Of a DNA stretch of 41,876 nt, positions 24,870 through 33,312 are shown piece after piece. The stretch spans positions 1-41,876 of the IMG/VR virus record IMGVR_UViG_3300036860_000522; one strand, 5' to 3'. Below the pieces are notes generated by a model. That model was not told the origin of the DNA and searched no databases. It saw only the letters and a list, made by a program, of their open reading frames with translations. Source of the DNA: a virus. Each line of letters opens with the position of its first letter. Within the stretch, counting starts at the first letter, position 1. The position numbers and the translations under genes are program-made.

Positions 24870-25256
24870 CAGAATATTCGGGTGAGTTTCGCGTCCGCCA
24901 TCATGGGCGGCGCGTACGCGAATCGGGAGTGACACGGGAGTGAGGCGGGAGTGGAGAGACCCTTGTAGACCTCTACAGGCCCAACTGCTCGACGTCCGGC
25001 TGCAGCCGGAAGGGCCACACCTGGAACGATTTCGGGGATTTCGACGCGATCGCCGGGCGGCCGTGAATCTCACTCTCTCTGAGATTTCACAATTGCATTG
25101 TGATGATGCAGATTCGTCAGAGCGATGGCCGACGGGGATTCTGAGTGTTTCCGAACAAATCTGAACGCCTCTGAGGCGTCGGGTGGCACCGATGGGTGGC
25201 ACCCAGTTGGAATTCAGCAAATAACTGAGGAAAAGTGCGCATGTTCGACATTGACG
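24870..25256. promoter_or_regulatory. Gene-free attP left-arm region with repeats and palindromes
   Basis: No gene is supported over these 387 bases. They hold three direct copies of CGGGAGTG at 24924, 24935 and 24946 (11-bp spacing, about one helical turn). There is also a near-palindrome TGTAGA-cc-TCTACA (24964-24977), an inverted repeat AATCTCA/TGAGATT (25066-25086), and a perfect palindrome CACAAT-tgc-ATTGTG (25088-25102). Two copies of GGGTGGCACC follow (25181, 25194). The layout fits integrase arm sites plus binding sites for an excisionase or host factor. Confidence 0.6.
25141..25203 (+). repeat. Integrase arm-type repeat block, left copy
   Basis: Closely matches 25372-25434: shared CTGAGT-TT-CCGAAC, TCTGAAC-CCTCTGAGG and two tandem GGGTGGCACC units (25181-25190, 25194-25203). 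The two blocks lie on either side of the tRNA-derived core in the same orientation. Confidence 0.75.
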
Positions 25257-25305
25257 TTGGGCTCATAACCCAAAGGTCGCGGGTTCAAATCCCGCCCCCG
25301 CAACC
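25257..25305 (+). other. attP: attP core: 3' half of an initiator tRNA (fMet, CAT) gene
   Basis: A 5-bp anticodon stem TTGGG/CCCAA closes the loop CTCATAA with anticodon CAT (25264-25266). A T-arm GCGGG-TTCAAAT-CCCGC (25279-25295) and the acceptor 3' strand CCCCGCA plus A-C-C follow. Initiator features are the GGG:CCC pairs next to the anticodon loop and the A at position 72. The 5' half of a tRNA is absent, so this is not a functional gene but a copy that would rebuild the host gene on integration. Confidence 0.85.
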
Positions 25306-25371
25306 CCCTTTCCTTCGCAGTTTTCCTCAGCTTTTCCGTTCGTTCGCCTGATCGCGCTCCATCCGACGATG

Positions 25372-25455
25372 CTGAGTTTTTCCGAACGATTCTGAACCCC
25401 TCTGAGGGCTCGGGTGGCACCGCCGGGTGGCACCGAGCGGGCGGCGGGTGGCACT
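25372..25455 (+). repeat. Integrase arm-type repeat block, right copy
   Basis: Matches the left block at 25141-25203 and carries GGGTGGCACC at 25412-25421 and 25425-25434, plus a variant ending in T at 25446-25455 that overlaps the stop of the next minus-strand gene. Confidence 0.75.
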
Positions 25456-25656: not shown

Positions 25657-26739
25657 TCAGCTGATCTGCAAACGCCCTTCGAGCTTCTTCCCGATGCGCT
25701 TCTGGCGCATGCGCAGAATCGGACCATAGAACCGCCGCGTCGTGTCGATCGACGCGTGGCCGAGCAGCGCCTGCAGGTCGCCGAGATCGGCGCCGGCTTC
25801 GATGGCGTCGATGGCGACCGAGTGCCGCGCGTTGTACAACGGGATCGCCTTCGGCCAGCCGTGCGCACGCGCGACCGCGAGCAGCTGCGACGTGTCGTAG
25901 GGGCCGAGCGCGCCGGCGGCGAGCAGTTGCTGCACGGCGACACGCATCTCGGCGTTCAGGTGAATCGCGTGGGTGGGGCCGCCCTTCGCGCCGCGCACGA
26001 TCCAGAACTGTTTCCGGAGATCGAAGTCCTCCGCGATCGCCCGCTGCAGCTGCGCCGGCCGCTGCCCGGTCGTGACGAGCAGCAGGTAGCGCGCGTAGTC
26101 CTGCCGCGCGGGACTGTGCAGCGGCGTCCAGCGCGCCCGCTGCTTGAGTGCCAGGGCGACGCGCGTCACGCGGTCGATGGGGACGCCGACGGGCGTCGCC
26201 GCCGGCGGCTTCGGCCGCGGCACCTCGTCGCACGGCGTCTTCGCCGTCGGCCCGTCGAGCAGTTTGTAGAGATGCCGGAGGACGCGCCAGCGCTGCTGCA
26301 GCGTCTTCTCCGACGCCGGCGCCTCGAGCGCGTGCCGTGTGCGGGTGCCGCGGCCGCCCGTGAACGTGCCGGCGGTGCGCCAGGCGGCGAGGGCCAGGCG
26401 GACGTCGGCCGCCGTGATGCGGCCGCGCATCTTCGGGCCGAGGCGATCGATCCAGGCGCGCAGATGCGACCGGTCCGCCGCGCTGCCCGGGCGCCCCGCG
26501 ATCTGTTTGCAGTACTTCACCGCATCATGAGCGAGCGTCCCGCGCGCCGCCTGGCCCGGCGCCGCGGCGCGGAGATCGAGGCGCAGTTGATCGCGCTGCG
26601 TGCGCAGCACCTCGAGGTCGGTGTCGAGGGGAAAGCGGAGCTCCTGCTGCGCCCCATGGACCTTGACCTTGACCGCGCAGCCGGTCGCGTCCTGGTAGAT
26701 GCACGAGTCGAGGCGCCGGCGTCGGCCTTTGCGTCCCAT
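25657..26739 (-). CDS. int: Tyrosine-family integrase
   Basis: A 360-residue phage integrase. The first 100 residues suit an arm-binding N-terminal domain, followed by a SAM-like core-binding region (SEKTLQQRWRVLRHLYKLL). The catalytic domain has the first Arg in LLLVTTGQRPAQLQRAI, a Lys in IVRGAKGG, the second Arg in YNARHSVA, the His in LLGHASIDTT and the nucleophile Tyr in TRRFYGPI. The His of the usual H-x-x-R box is Tyr here, a known tolerated variation. It would recombine the attP core at 25257-25305 with a host initiator tRNA gene. Its 3' end faces attP. Confidence 0.9.
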   Translation of the reverse strand: MGRKGRRRRLDSCIYQDATGCAVKVKVHGAQQELRFPLDTDLEVLRTQRDQLRLDLRAAAPGQAARGTLAHDAVKYCKQIAGRPGSAADRSHLRAWIDRLGPKMRGRITAADVRLALAAWRTAGTFTGGRGTRTRHALEAPASEKTLQQRWRVLRHLYKLLDGPTAKTPCDEVPRPKPPAATPVGVPIDRVTRVALALKQRARWTPLHSPARQDYARYLLLVTTGQRPAQLQRAIAEDFDLRKQFWIVRGAKGGPTHAIHLNAEMRVAVQQLLAAGALGPYDTSQLLAVARAHGWPKAIPLYNARHSVAIDAIEAGADLGDLQALLGHASIDTTRRFYGPILRMRQKRIGKKLEGRLQIS

Positions 26740-27678: not shown

Positions 27679-28146
27679 TCACGCGGATGCCGCCCCTTTA
27701 CGAGCACGAGGACGCTTCGACGAATCACTGGCTTTATCTCGGCGTCGGGACGTGGGCTTTTTGTGCGGCGGCTTGACCGCGTCGCTTTTGTGTTGGGTTT
27801 GCTCGACCAACTTCCGCAAATCAGCGCCCTGCTCCTCGACGCGCTTTCTGAGATCGGCGACTTCTTGTAATGTGCGTGCCTGCTCCGCCTGCAGCCGCGC
27901 CACGTCAGCTGGATGCTTGCGCAGAATGCGCGCCTGTTCCTCTGTGCAAAGTGTTTCAACGATATCGACGCCCAACGCTTTCGCGACCTGCTCGAGAGTG
28001 TCCACGCCCGGTACCGATTTGCCGCTGAGGATCGCATTGAGTGCTGGCCGCGAAATCGTCGCGTCCTTGCTCAGGTCTGTTTGATCCACGTTCCTTTCGA
28101 GCATTAGGCGGTTTATCGCAGATACCCACCGCGCGAGGTCACTCAC
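27679..28146 (-). CDS. CI-like XRE repressor with coiled-coil tail
   Basis: A 155-residue protein from GTG 28146. An XRE helix-turn-helix (NRLMLERNVDQTDLSKDATI, then SRPALNAILSGKSVPGVDTL) is followed by a coiled coil (LQAEQARTLQEVADLRKRVE) and a basic C-terminal tail. There is no LexA-type protease domain, so induction must differ from lambda. It is divergent from the Cro-like gene across an operator-rich gap, the usual immunity layout. A -10-like TATGCT ends just before the GTG, consistent with a leaderless or near-leaderless message. TTG 28170 is an alternative start. Confidence 0.82.
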   Translation of the reverse strand: MSDLARWVSAINRLMLERNVDQTDLSKDATISRPALNAILSGKSVPGVDTLEQVAKALGVDIVETLCTEEQARILRKHPADVARLQAEQARTLQEVADLRKRVEEQGADLRKLVEQTQHKSDAVKPPHKKPTSRRRDKASDSSKRPRARKGAASA

Positions 28147-28265
28147 CCGGTAAGCATACGACGCCAACAACGTAAGTTGTGGACGGTGGCTGTTGGCGCG
28201 TCGTCAACATATCAAATGTAGTGTGTGCTTGACAATAGATGTGTTGACTGCTTATGCTTTCGTTC
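28147..28265. promoter_or_regulatory. Immunity operator-promoter region
   Basis: The gap between the divergent repressors. Rightward: TTGACA (28229-28234) and TATGCT (28253-28258), 18 bases apart. Leftward: TATGCT read from the minus strand near 28157-28152, with no good -35. Candidate operators: TGTTG..CAACA (28191-28209, 7 of 9 pairs), ACAAC..GTTGT (28167-28180) and TGTTGAC in both orientations (28203-28209, 28242-28248). CGCCAACA and TGTTGGCG (28162, 28191) also pair. Confidence 0.7.
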
Positions 28266-28472
28266 GTGAGCCAACTACGCAAAGCGCGCGAACAGGCCGG
28301 CTATAGCCAGAGTGAACTGGCGCGTCTGATCAAAGTCCCGCAGGCGACGATCTCAGCGCTCGAAACGGGCAAGACGCAGAACCCGTCGCACACCCTGGTC
28401 ATCCGCATCTGCCGCGTTCTTCGGCGCAAGCCGGAGGATGTGTTCCCGGTGCGGTTAGAACGGACGGCATGA
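28254..28472 (+). CDS. Cro-like XRE repressor
   Basis: A 72-residue single XRE domain: QLRKAREQAGYSQSELARLI then PQATISALETGKTQNPSHTL, with a basic end. ATG 28254 lies within the -10 region of the rightward promoter, so the true start may be the in-frame GTG at 28266 (M-S-Q-L-R-K), which falls at the predicted transcription start and would be leaderless. It is the first gene rightward from the immunity region and should turn off the repressor. Confidence 0.82.
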   Translation: MLSFVSQLRKAREQAGYSQSELARLIKVPQATISALETGKTQNPSHTLVIRICRVLRRKPEDVFPVRLERTA

Positions 28473-30112: not shown

Positions 30113-30274
30113 AACGGCGAAACCACGGCGATCGATTCGGCGGGGGCACGCCGGATCGATCACCGGCGTAAGTGAGGAGGTGAAGCAGAGCGATGCATCA
30201 ACGGCGATCGACACCTGACGGCCGGCCCCACGCGATCCCAGCGCGTGGACGCCGGACGAGAAAAGGAACGACTC

Positions 30275-31255
30275 GTGACTGGGATCTCCAGCACCGACGC
30301 GCCGGCCCTGGCGCAGCGCGTCGAGTGGACGCGCGGCTTTCGCTGCGCGACCGACAAAGCCGTCCTCAGCGCCCTCGTGCGCTGGTACGCGTGGCGGCCC
30401 GACGGCACATCTATCCGGCCCTCGACGACCGAGCTCGCCACGAAGAGTCAGATCCCGCTGCGGTCCGTCGAACGAGCCCTCCACCGATTGGTTCGGGGGG
30501 GATGGCTCCAGGTCACCAGCCGGCAGCATCGCGGTCGGACCACGTATCGGCTCGCGCTCGATCGGCTGACCACTGAGGACCCGGATCGGATCCATCTCGC
30601 CCCGGATCGGCGGGAGGTCTTGTCCGCCACAGTGGCGGACAAAAGCCCTCTTGTCCGCCACAGTGGCGGACAAGAGACAAGTGGCGGACAAGGATTTGGG
30701 CCTGAATTTGACAAAGTGGCGGACAAAAAGTTGGCGCCCTCTTGCTATGTACCGAGATCTTCCGGAGAAGAACGTACGGGGTACACACACACACCGGCGG
30801 CGCCGTTTCAGCATCGGCAGCACGCCTACTGCGGCGCGCGATTCTGCGTGCCGGCCTTTCTCGACGACGAGTTCACGCGACAACTGGGAGGGGCGAACGT
30901 CGACATGCTCCAGGCCTGGTATCGGTCGCTCAATGCGCAGGTCCTCGCGGCCGGCACGCCGATCGGGGACGCCTTGAAATGGCTGCGCGCCCGGTTCGCG
31001 GCCTGGGTGGGCACGCGCCCCGGCGCGCGGCGTCCGCCGCACCGCCTGCGTTTCGGGCCGCTGTCACGGGAGGTCGCGCGGCGCGCCCCTCGACATGCTC
31101 ATCTGGCCCCTCCGCCGAATCGCTTGACCGCGGCGTTTGCGCGCGTCGTCCACGAGGGGTGTCGGCACACGCCCGAGTGCGGCGACCATCGGACGTGCGC
31201 GTGGAAACTGGTGCAGCAGGCAGACCGCGACGACGACCAGGAGGCCAGGCCTTGA
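30275..31255 (+). CDS. Replication initiator-like protein with winged-helix N-terminus
   Basis: A 326-residue protein from GTG 30275, which has aaaagga upstream (an earlier GTG at 30245 is in frame). About residues 25-95 form a winged-helix: FRCATDKAVLSALVRWYAW, STTELATKSQIPLRSVERAL, LVRGGWLQVTSRQHRGRTTY. This architecture is shared with lambda O-like and other phage initiators. The middle of the gene contains the iteron cluster at 30620-30726, so the protein probably binds its own gene. The C-terminal half is less conserved and would recruit host helicase or loader. No phage helicase or polymerase was found. Confidence 0.75.
   Translation: MTGISSTDAPALAQRVEWTRGFRCATDKAVLSALVRWYAWRPDGTSIRPSTTELATKSQIPLRSVERALHRLVRGGWLQVTSRQHRGRTTYRLALDRLTTEDPDRIHLAPDRREVLSATVADKSPLVRHSGGQETSGGQGFGPEFDKVADKKLAPSCYVPRSSGEERTGYTHTPAAPFQHRQHAYCGARFCVPAFLDDEFTRQLGGANVDMLQAWYRSLNAQVLAAGTPIGDALKWLRARFAAWVGTRPGARRPPHRLRFGPLSREVARRAPRHAHLAPPPNRLTAAFARVVHEGCRHTPECGDHRTCAWKLVQQADRDDDQEARP
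30620..30726 (+). other. ori: Candidate replication origin (iterons inside the initiator gene)
   Basis: Six copies of the 11-mer GTGGCGGACAA or its complement. Two form 23-bp perfect palindromes (30620-30642 and 30651-30673, 31 bp apart) and two are single (30681-30691, 30716-30726). A somewhat A/T-richer patch lies between the last two. An intragenic position is as in lambda ori within O. Confidence 0.82.
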
Positions 31256-31704
31256 CGGAATTCCACCGCCTGAGCGAACCGTTCCGCACCGTGGCGGTGG
31301 GCCGCCGGGCCTGGGGCGAGCTCCGGCGCCTGGCGGCCGCCGCGCGCACGCGCGTGACGACGCGGCTGAAATACCACAACACGATCGCGGTAGTCGACGG
31401 CCACCGGTTCGACAGCCGGCGGGAAGCGCGCCGGTACACCCAGCTCCGGCTGCTCGCGTGCGCCGGCGCGATCGCCGATCTCGAGCTGCAGCCGGAGTTC
31501 GTCCTCTACGCGCCGGTGCTGGATGACGAGGGCCGGATCCTCGATGTGCAGCGCATCGGATCGTATTTCGGCGATTTCCGGTATCGCGATCGCCGGACCG
31601 GCGCCGTCGTCGTCGAAGACGCGAAAGGCGTGCGCACGCCGCTCTATCGCTTCAAACGCAAGCTGGTCGAAGCGCAGTACCGCATCCGCATCCTGGAGGT
31701 GTGA
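31252..31704 (+). CDS. DUF1064-type PD-(D/E)xK nuclease
   Basis: A 150-residue protein from TTG 31252 (TTGA overlap; ggagg upstream). Family marks: FDSRREARRYTQLRLLACAG, IADLELQPEFVLY, YFGDFRYRDR, AVVVEDAKGVRTPLYRFKRK. The Asp in GDFRY and the D-x-K in VEDAKG give a PD-(D/E)xK active site. DUF1064 proteins are T7 endonuclease I-like, probably resolving branched DNA during replication or packaging. Location directly after the initiator agrees. Confidence 0.85.
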   Translation: MTEFHRLSEPFRTVAVGRRAWGELRRLAAAARTRVTTRLKYHNTIAVVDGHRFDSRREARRYTQLRLLACAGAIADLELQPEFVLYAPVLDDEGRILDVQRIGSYFGDFRYRDRRTGAVVVEDAKGVRTPLYRFKRKLVEAQYRIRILEV

Positions 31705-32760: not shown

Positions 32761-33312
32761 ATGCGAGCGACCGACCGACCGACCGACCGACCGACCGACC
32801 GACCGACCGACCGATTTTCGCTGCCGGCCGATCTCCGTCGCCGCCTGGCGGCGATCGCCGCGGCGGAGGGCCTGACCGTGCGTGAGCTCGTGATCGACGC
32901 CGTCCGCGAGCTCGTCGCCGCCTATGCCGCTGACGAGGACCCGTTCGTGGCGCCACGCCGCACCGAGCCGCTCGATCCCACGATTCGGAGATGCGTCGGT
33001 TTTGCGCGGGCATGGGGATTCGACTGGCTGTTGATGGGAAACATCTACGCCTATCGCTCGACGAATCCCAAAGTGCTGCACACGGTTGACGATCCCGTCG
33101 GTCCGCTGAATCAGGACGCGCTGAAGTGGATGACGCAGAAGGCAGAACTCGTCATCGCAGCGTGGGGAAGGGCCCAATTGAATTGCTACGGCCAGACACT
33201 CGCCGGCTGGATTCTCTCCCTGGAACACACGCGCTGTTTGGCGCTGAATCACGATGGGTCGCCGAGGCATCCGCTGTATGTATCAGCCGCGATGACGCCG
33301 TGCCGAATCTGA
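32761..33312 (+). CDS. Ribbon-helix-helix / DUF1643 fusion with a tetranucleotide tract
   Basis: A 183-residue protein. After M-R-A it runs through a (T-D-R-P) repeat encoded by 11 CCGA units. About residues 19-55 then resemble a ribbon-helix-helix segment (FSLPADLRRRLAAIAAAEGL, TVRELVIDAVRELVAAY). From about residue 77 it matches DUF1643: DPTIRRCVGFARAWGFDWLL, NIYAYRSTNPKVLH, AELVIAAWGRAQLN, and CLALNHDGSPRHPLYV. The usual N-terminal strand of DUF1643 (the LNPS motif) is missing and seems replaced by the RHH part. The tract makes the gene a phase-variation candidate. It ends TGATG with the HNH gene. Confidence 0.78.
   Translation: MRATDRPTDRPTDRPTDRFSLPADLRRRLAAIAAAEGLTVRELVIDAVRELVAAYAADEDPFVAPRRTEPLDPTIRRCVGFARAWGFDWLLMGNIYAYRSTNPKVLHTVDDPVGPLNQDALKWMTQKAELVIAAWGRAQLNCYGQTLAGWILSLEHTRCLALNHDGSPRHPLYVSAAMTPCRI
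32771..32814 (+). repeat. Tetranucleotide tract, 11 x CCGA
   Basis: Eleven exact CCGA units (44 bp) begin ten bases after the A of the start codon, preceded by a near-unit GCGA. The unit is 4 bp, so gain or loss of one copy shifts the frame. Confidence 0.97.

Follow-up and report, generated by a model that had tools for sequence, protein, structure and literature searches.

A replication origin that lies within a gene poses a puzzle: the same DNA has to be both an array of binding sites and the coding sequence of a protein linker, and all copies of the site must keep step with the protein. A very probable case is found in the window, the 41,876-nt stretch of viral DNA analyzed here (positions 1 to 41,876 of IMG/VR record IMGVR_UViG_3300036860_000522), in which an 11-mer, GTGGCGGACAA, is iterated inside a single gene. 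We asked what this array is, and whether selection has acted on the DNA or on the encoded protein.

GTGGCGGACAA occurs as six exact copies at 30620–30726 (30620–30630, minus strand; 30632–30642; 30651–30661, minus strand; 30663–30673; 30681–30691; 30716–30726) and nowhere else in the window. In dinucleotide-preserving shuffles of the whole window, 0.03 copies were expected and none of 100 shuffles gave six; a chance origin of the six copies is excluded. The original prediction had described six copies arranged as two 23-bp palindromes and two single sites, and both its coordinates and its counts were confirmed. The array is made up of the following elements:

30620–30642, no strand: palindromic iteron P1, TTGTCCGCCACaGTGGCGGACAA; exact copies, kept in eight relatives
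30651–30673, no strand: palindromic iteron P2, 31 bp after P1; spacing 31–32 bp in all nine phages
30681–30691, plus strand: single-site iteron S3; exact copy, kept in relatives
30692–30715, plus strand: AT-richer spacer GGATTTGGGCCTGAATTTGACAAA, conserved, a candidate unwinding element (A+T content, pattern GGCCTGANTNYGANRAAGTGGC)
30716–30726, plus strand: single-site iteron S4; exact copy, kept in relatives

The 23-mers P1 and P2 are perfect palindromes save for the central base, and S3 and S4 are half-sites. The A+T content is 57% (30-bp windows, 30690–30729) versus 34% for the window, and this local AT peak adjoins the array on its downstream side.

All six sites are located inside one gene, approximately 350 bp past its start. 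The gene and the predicted parts of its product are:

30275–31255, plus strand: gene for an O-like replication initiator of 326 aa; starts with GTG, preceded by AAGGA (open reading frame, PHROG matches)
30308–30568, plus strand: winged-helix DNA-binding domain, aa 12–98 (AlphaFold2 model)
30605–30865, plus strand: disordered linker with the iterons, aa 111–197 (pLDDT 30–44 in the AlphaFold2 model; likewise in the relative L035)
30866–31252, plus strand: C-terminal domain, divergent, containing the motif CxHx3CxnC (aa 296–308; identity to relatives, alignment)

In the AlphaFold2 model, the winged helix (H12–18, H25–38, H51–58, H62–74, E78–83, E89–93) has a pLDDT of mostly 80–94, the linker contains everything that the iterons encode, and the predicted C-domain is helical. 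The model of L035 has the same three-part layout.

The assignment of the gene as an initiator comes from PHROG profiles. The window protein weakly matches the replication-initiation families phrog_8102, 391, 270 and 678 (E 3e-5 to 7e-5). Of the nine members of the family described below, seven match phrog_391, annotated as 'replication initiation O-like' (best E 6e-10), and five match phrog_678, an O-like initiator family that lambda O likewise matches (best E 3e-6), in both cases over the winged-helix domain. None of the nine was listed for Pfam PF04492 (Phage_rep_O) at E up to 1, lambda O itself scoring 6e-36, and a profile-profile comparison with lambda O N-domains was weak, aligning 40 columns with a probability of 11%. 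The initiator is therefore O-like by its layout and PHROG matches and is not placed in the lambda O family. Sequence searches of the PDB yielded nothing useful for the initiator, and the matches to solved structures are generic winged helices, including 4pt7, deposited as 'Structure of initiator' (Z 8.2). Identity as CRP, MarR or a similar protein was rejected, the fold matches being taken as generic winged helix only.

These fold matches are mostly to transcription factors, and the remaining Pfam matches are sub-threshold GntR, HTH and TrmB only, as might suit a repressor or activator of its own operon or of an intragenic promoter, with the iterons as its operators. We consider this improbable: the sites are mid-gene, far past the start, a scan of 30200–31300 gave no promoter-like site, the PHROG matches point to replication initiators, and sites in a linker before the C-domain correspond to the layout of O.

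The genes that frame the initiator are as follows:

25657–26739: integrase
27679–28170: CI-like repressor
28254–28472: Cro-like repressor
31252–31704: DUF1064/Holliday-junction-resolvase gene, after the initiator
36.1–38.7 kb: terminase genes

The order of integrase, CI-like repressor, Cro-like repressor, initiator and resolvase is lambda-like. Searches that included positive controls detected no lambda P (PF06992), IstB/DnaC (PF01695) or DnaB (PF03796) protein in the nine contigs, some of which may be incomplete. Helicase loading would thus fall to the host or to a loader of unrecognized type; the earlier remark that no phage helicase loader was found holds for these families, as an absence of detection in the nine genomes. 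In four related phages, an FtsK/HerA-like ATPase is encoded downstream of the initiator (L043:6788-8584, L046:9223-11037, L048:8959-10680, L047:10895-13174) and is possibly a helicase or translocase. The proteins of L043, L046 and L048 are homologous, the L046 protein ending in an MCM_C-type winged helix, and the window has no member of this homologous set.

Relatives were obtained from the viral contigs through the repeats themselves. A search for paired TGGCGGACAA gave 26 contigs, of which about 20, with the repeats in unrelated genes and many of these coding GGQ, were dropped; three phages (L015, L016 and L018) had the same gene. An alignment built from these three yielded five more, for a total of eight relatives or, with the window, nine phages. 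No relatives were found by a single-protein search with the window initiator, or for the initiator among 84,980 bacterial and archaeal genomes. An exact search for the palindrome in viral contigs and genomes was also empty, because the tails and arms vary between phages (the L035-type palindrome, for example, is TCGACCGCCAaaGTGGCGGTCGA).

An initiator of this kind is encoded by all eight relatives, and the array occupies the same place in the gene. The order of palindrome, palindrome, single site, single site is common to the nine phages, with right-arm spacings of 31–32, 18–19 and 34–35 bp, the sole exception being L034, which has an inserted extra site. In 2.9 million viral contigs, the pattern GGCCTGANTNYGANRAAGTGGC of the S3–S4 segment was found only in this initiator family, with hits in the eight related contigs and in no others.

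The conservation of the two ends of the protein is markedly different. The window N-domain is 60–68% identical to those of its nearest relatives, L034–L036, versus approximately 26–28% for the C-domain, in partial alignments with marginal E-values. The branch of the window in the C-domain tree is 4.3 versus 0.28, and the C-domain searched alone found no relative. The simplest reading of these comparisons is that a block consisting of the binding domain and the array was joined to another C-domain; the C-domain may alternatively have diverged very fast. C296, H298 and C308 are invariant in all nine initiators, and the C-terminal CxHx3[CH]xnC motif (aa 296–308 of the window protein, 31160–31198) is shared by the whole family of nine, two of which have H in place of C. 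From its residue pattern, this motif looks like a small zinc site.

The relatives have a last palindrome, absent from the window, and several carry a hairpin between S4 and that palindrome (L034:8411-8457, L035:8414-8468, L037:8426-8484, L039:8387-8448, L040:6335-6384). These hairpins are often purine/pyrimidine-rich, vary in sequence by phage and have z-scores of −3.2 to −5.6 as single-stranded DNA; the lambda origin also has a hairpin (z −3.0). Pairing of S4 with the left arm of the relatives' last palindrome is suggestive. The hairpin is weak in L036, L038, L041 and the window (z −0.3) and was therefore left out of the parts of the window array.

Several lines of evidence bear on whether the repeats are maintained as DNA or as protein. 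As the original prediction had stated, the palindromes encode protein repeats that depend on the frame: P1 is translated as LSATVADK (phase 0) and P2 as LVRHSGGQ (phase 1). In 20,000 synonymous-codon shuffles with the protein fixed, the top count for any 11-mer was four (reached in eight shuffles) versus the six observed, so the repetition in the DNA is not imposed by that in the protein. Across the nine phages, the iteron core GTGGCG is constant and the last five bases, or tail, vary: GACAA in the window and L037–L039, GTCGA in L035 and L040, CGCGA in L036, CACAA/CGCAA in L034, and GATGA/GACGA in L041. Within-phage tail identity is 0.848, versus 0.635 for sites shuffled across phages (highest value in 20,000 trials 0.748; p 5e-5), and it is equally good, 0.85, for pairs of sites in different codon phases. 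S3, in turn, is in codon phase 1 in the window and L034–L036 and in phase 2 in L037–L041, where the encoded protein is of the EWRT type instead of SGGQ and the DNA is kept. The uniformity of tails across phases and the retention of S3 through a frame change argue for selection on DNA, upholding that part of the original prediction; judged from the aligned genes, protein-level selection cannot yield such a frame change with the DNA kept.

The comparison of the nine phages further shows that the sites and their predicted binding protein have changed together, which bears on two other explanations of the repeats. The palindromes could act in the mRNA as hairpins that terminate or pace translation; a 23-bp palindrome is expected to fold strongly, and there is a terminator-like match at 30677–30647 on the minus strand. 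That strand is the non-coding one, however, S3 and S4 are single and have no local hairpin, no Rfam match was found, and the tails of separate sites change jointly, as a protein ligand would demand, making an RNA role very unlikely. Iterated palindromes are known also from packaging, partition and recombination sites, and the repeats might be another phage DNA site of this sort. Such a role appears just as remote: in nine phages the sites lie within the gene of a replication initiator, they change jointly with the winged helix, and in the window the array is far from the terminase (36.1–38.7 kb) and the integrase (25.7–26.7 kb).

Candidate specificity residues were sought among the 75 variable columns of the N-domain. 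Residue 85 (H/N/S) alone fully determines iteron base 10 (A/G), and residue 66 (E/D) alone is an exact match to base 7 (G/C); in the AlphaFold2 model, these residues are placed in the wing and in the third, recognition helix, respectively. In the N-domain tree, base-7 C is paired with D66 at two distinct positions and base 10 changes with residue 85 about three times, such that the site and residue changes fall together on independent branches. By the column test alone, 7 of 126 partitions do equally well for base 10 and 4 of 36 for base 7; given also that the test was post hoc and involved nine sequences, the apparent tracking of the changing iteron bases by residues 66 and 85 is suggestive, a lead and not a proof. 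We tentatively propose a readable code, in which residue 66 (E/D) would specify base 7 (G/C) and residue 85 (H versus N/S) base 10 (A/G), carried by a winged-helix/iteron cassette that might be joined to an unrelated, host-facing C-domain, as in the window. If the code is true, the nine phages form a natural series of initiator–iteron pairs. With its co-changing tails, a site that survived a shift of frame and residues that may set specificity, the family makes initiator–origin co-evolution directly testable by swaps.

Taken together, the array very probably serves a temperate tailed phage as its replication origin, placed inside the phage's own initiator gene as in the lambda O type. The O-like PHROG matches of seven of the nine members, the presence of the array in the eight relatives and the DNA-level selection support the original prediction of a lambda-like intragenic origin. 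Its lambda-type features are iterons within the initiator gene, inverted repeats suited to a dimer (P1 and P2, with S3 and S4 as half-sites) and an AT-richer stretch after the iterons, less extreme than the tract of lambda. In the mechanism that we infer, dimers of the encoded protein would bind the two palindromes via their winged-helix domains, and the half-sites S3 and S4 would probably be taken by single subunits or by cooperatively held dimers. The bound subunits would form an O-some-like complex and melt the AT-richer stretch just downstream, and the C-terminal domain would then bring in the host replicative helicase, directly or via a host loader. A turn of GC skew near 30.6 kb, which had been suggested as a check, did not materialize: the skew minimum is at 24.7 kb and there is no turn at the array. 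GC skew in so small a phage mostly tracks gene orientation.

Since lambda, it has been known in general that an origin can lie within the initiator gene. In lambda and the P27 and 933W variants, the origin lies midway through that gene, and any additional iterons merely lengthen the protein by the residues they encode; a single lambda iteron is an imperfect inverted repeat of 18–19 bp and is bound by two O proteins (PMC7466680, PMC6022878). The contrast with lambda originally drawn from the palindromic pairs therefore fails, since the iterons of lambda, too, are inverted repeats to which O dimers bind (PMC7466680, PMC6022878); the unusual part of the array is the two half-sites. The origins of lambda, P27 and 933W and that of the window are alike in their mid-gene position, several inverted-repeat iterons and an AT-richer stretch downstream, and lambda shares with the window the arrangement of a linker plus C-domain with the sites in the linker. 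Lambda has four iterons of 18–19 bp with starts 20–24 bp apart, whereas the window has 23-bp palindromes of GTGGCGGACAA 31 bp apart and two half-sites. The window protein also differs in having no Phage_rep_O match and no neighboring P gene, and the phage differs in its iteron specificity, its unrelated C-terminal domain and the lack of a detected loader or helicase.

In SPP1, oriL is located in gene 38, which encodes the replisome organizer gp38; this initiator gene contains both the repeats and an AT-rich unwinding element (PMC6316719). It resembles the window in having a repeat-bearing origin inside an initiator gene; unlike the window, SPP1 has direct repeats and a second origin, and both a loader (gp39) and a helicase (gp40) are phage-encoded. 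The TGGCGGACAA decamer is also iterated in replication genes of other families, a DnaD-like loader and another initiator (L007:7164-7218, L024:2940-2994, L027:289-319). The DnaD-like phage initiator genes of L007 and L024 resemble the window in having the decamer in tandem inside a phage replication gene, but they belong to another protein family and their repeats are head-to-tail with 11–12 bp spacing and no palindromes. New here are the other protein subfamily, the other iteron, the half-sites and the finding of no phage loader.

Some other features of the window deserve mention. GGGTGGCACC is present in four copies at 25181–25445, adjoining the integrase gene, and these are candidate arm-type or attachment-site repeats. 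A predicted tRNA-Val (CAC; ARAGORN) at 2007–2097 on the minus strand is antisense within a large open frame and is possibly a false call. No repeat cluster comparable to the GTGGCGGACAA array was found elsewhere in the window, except for a simple 4-bp repeat at 32769. This repeat consists of 13 copies of the unit CGAC at 32764–32814, where a DUF1643 gene begins; the unit is not divisible by three and could serve in frame switching.
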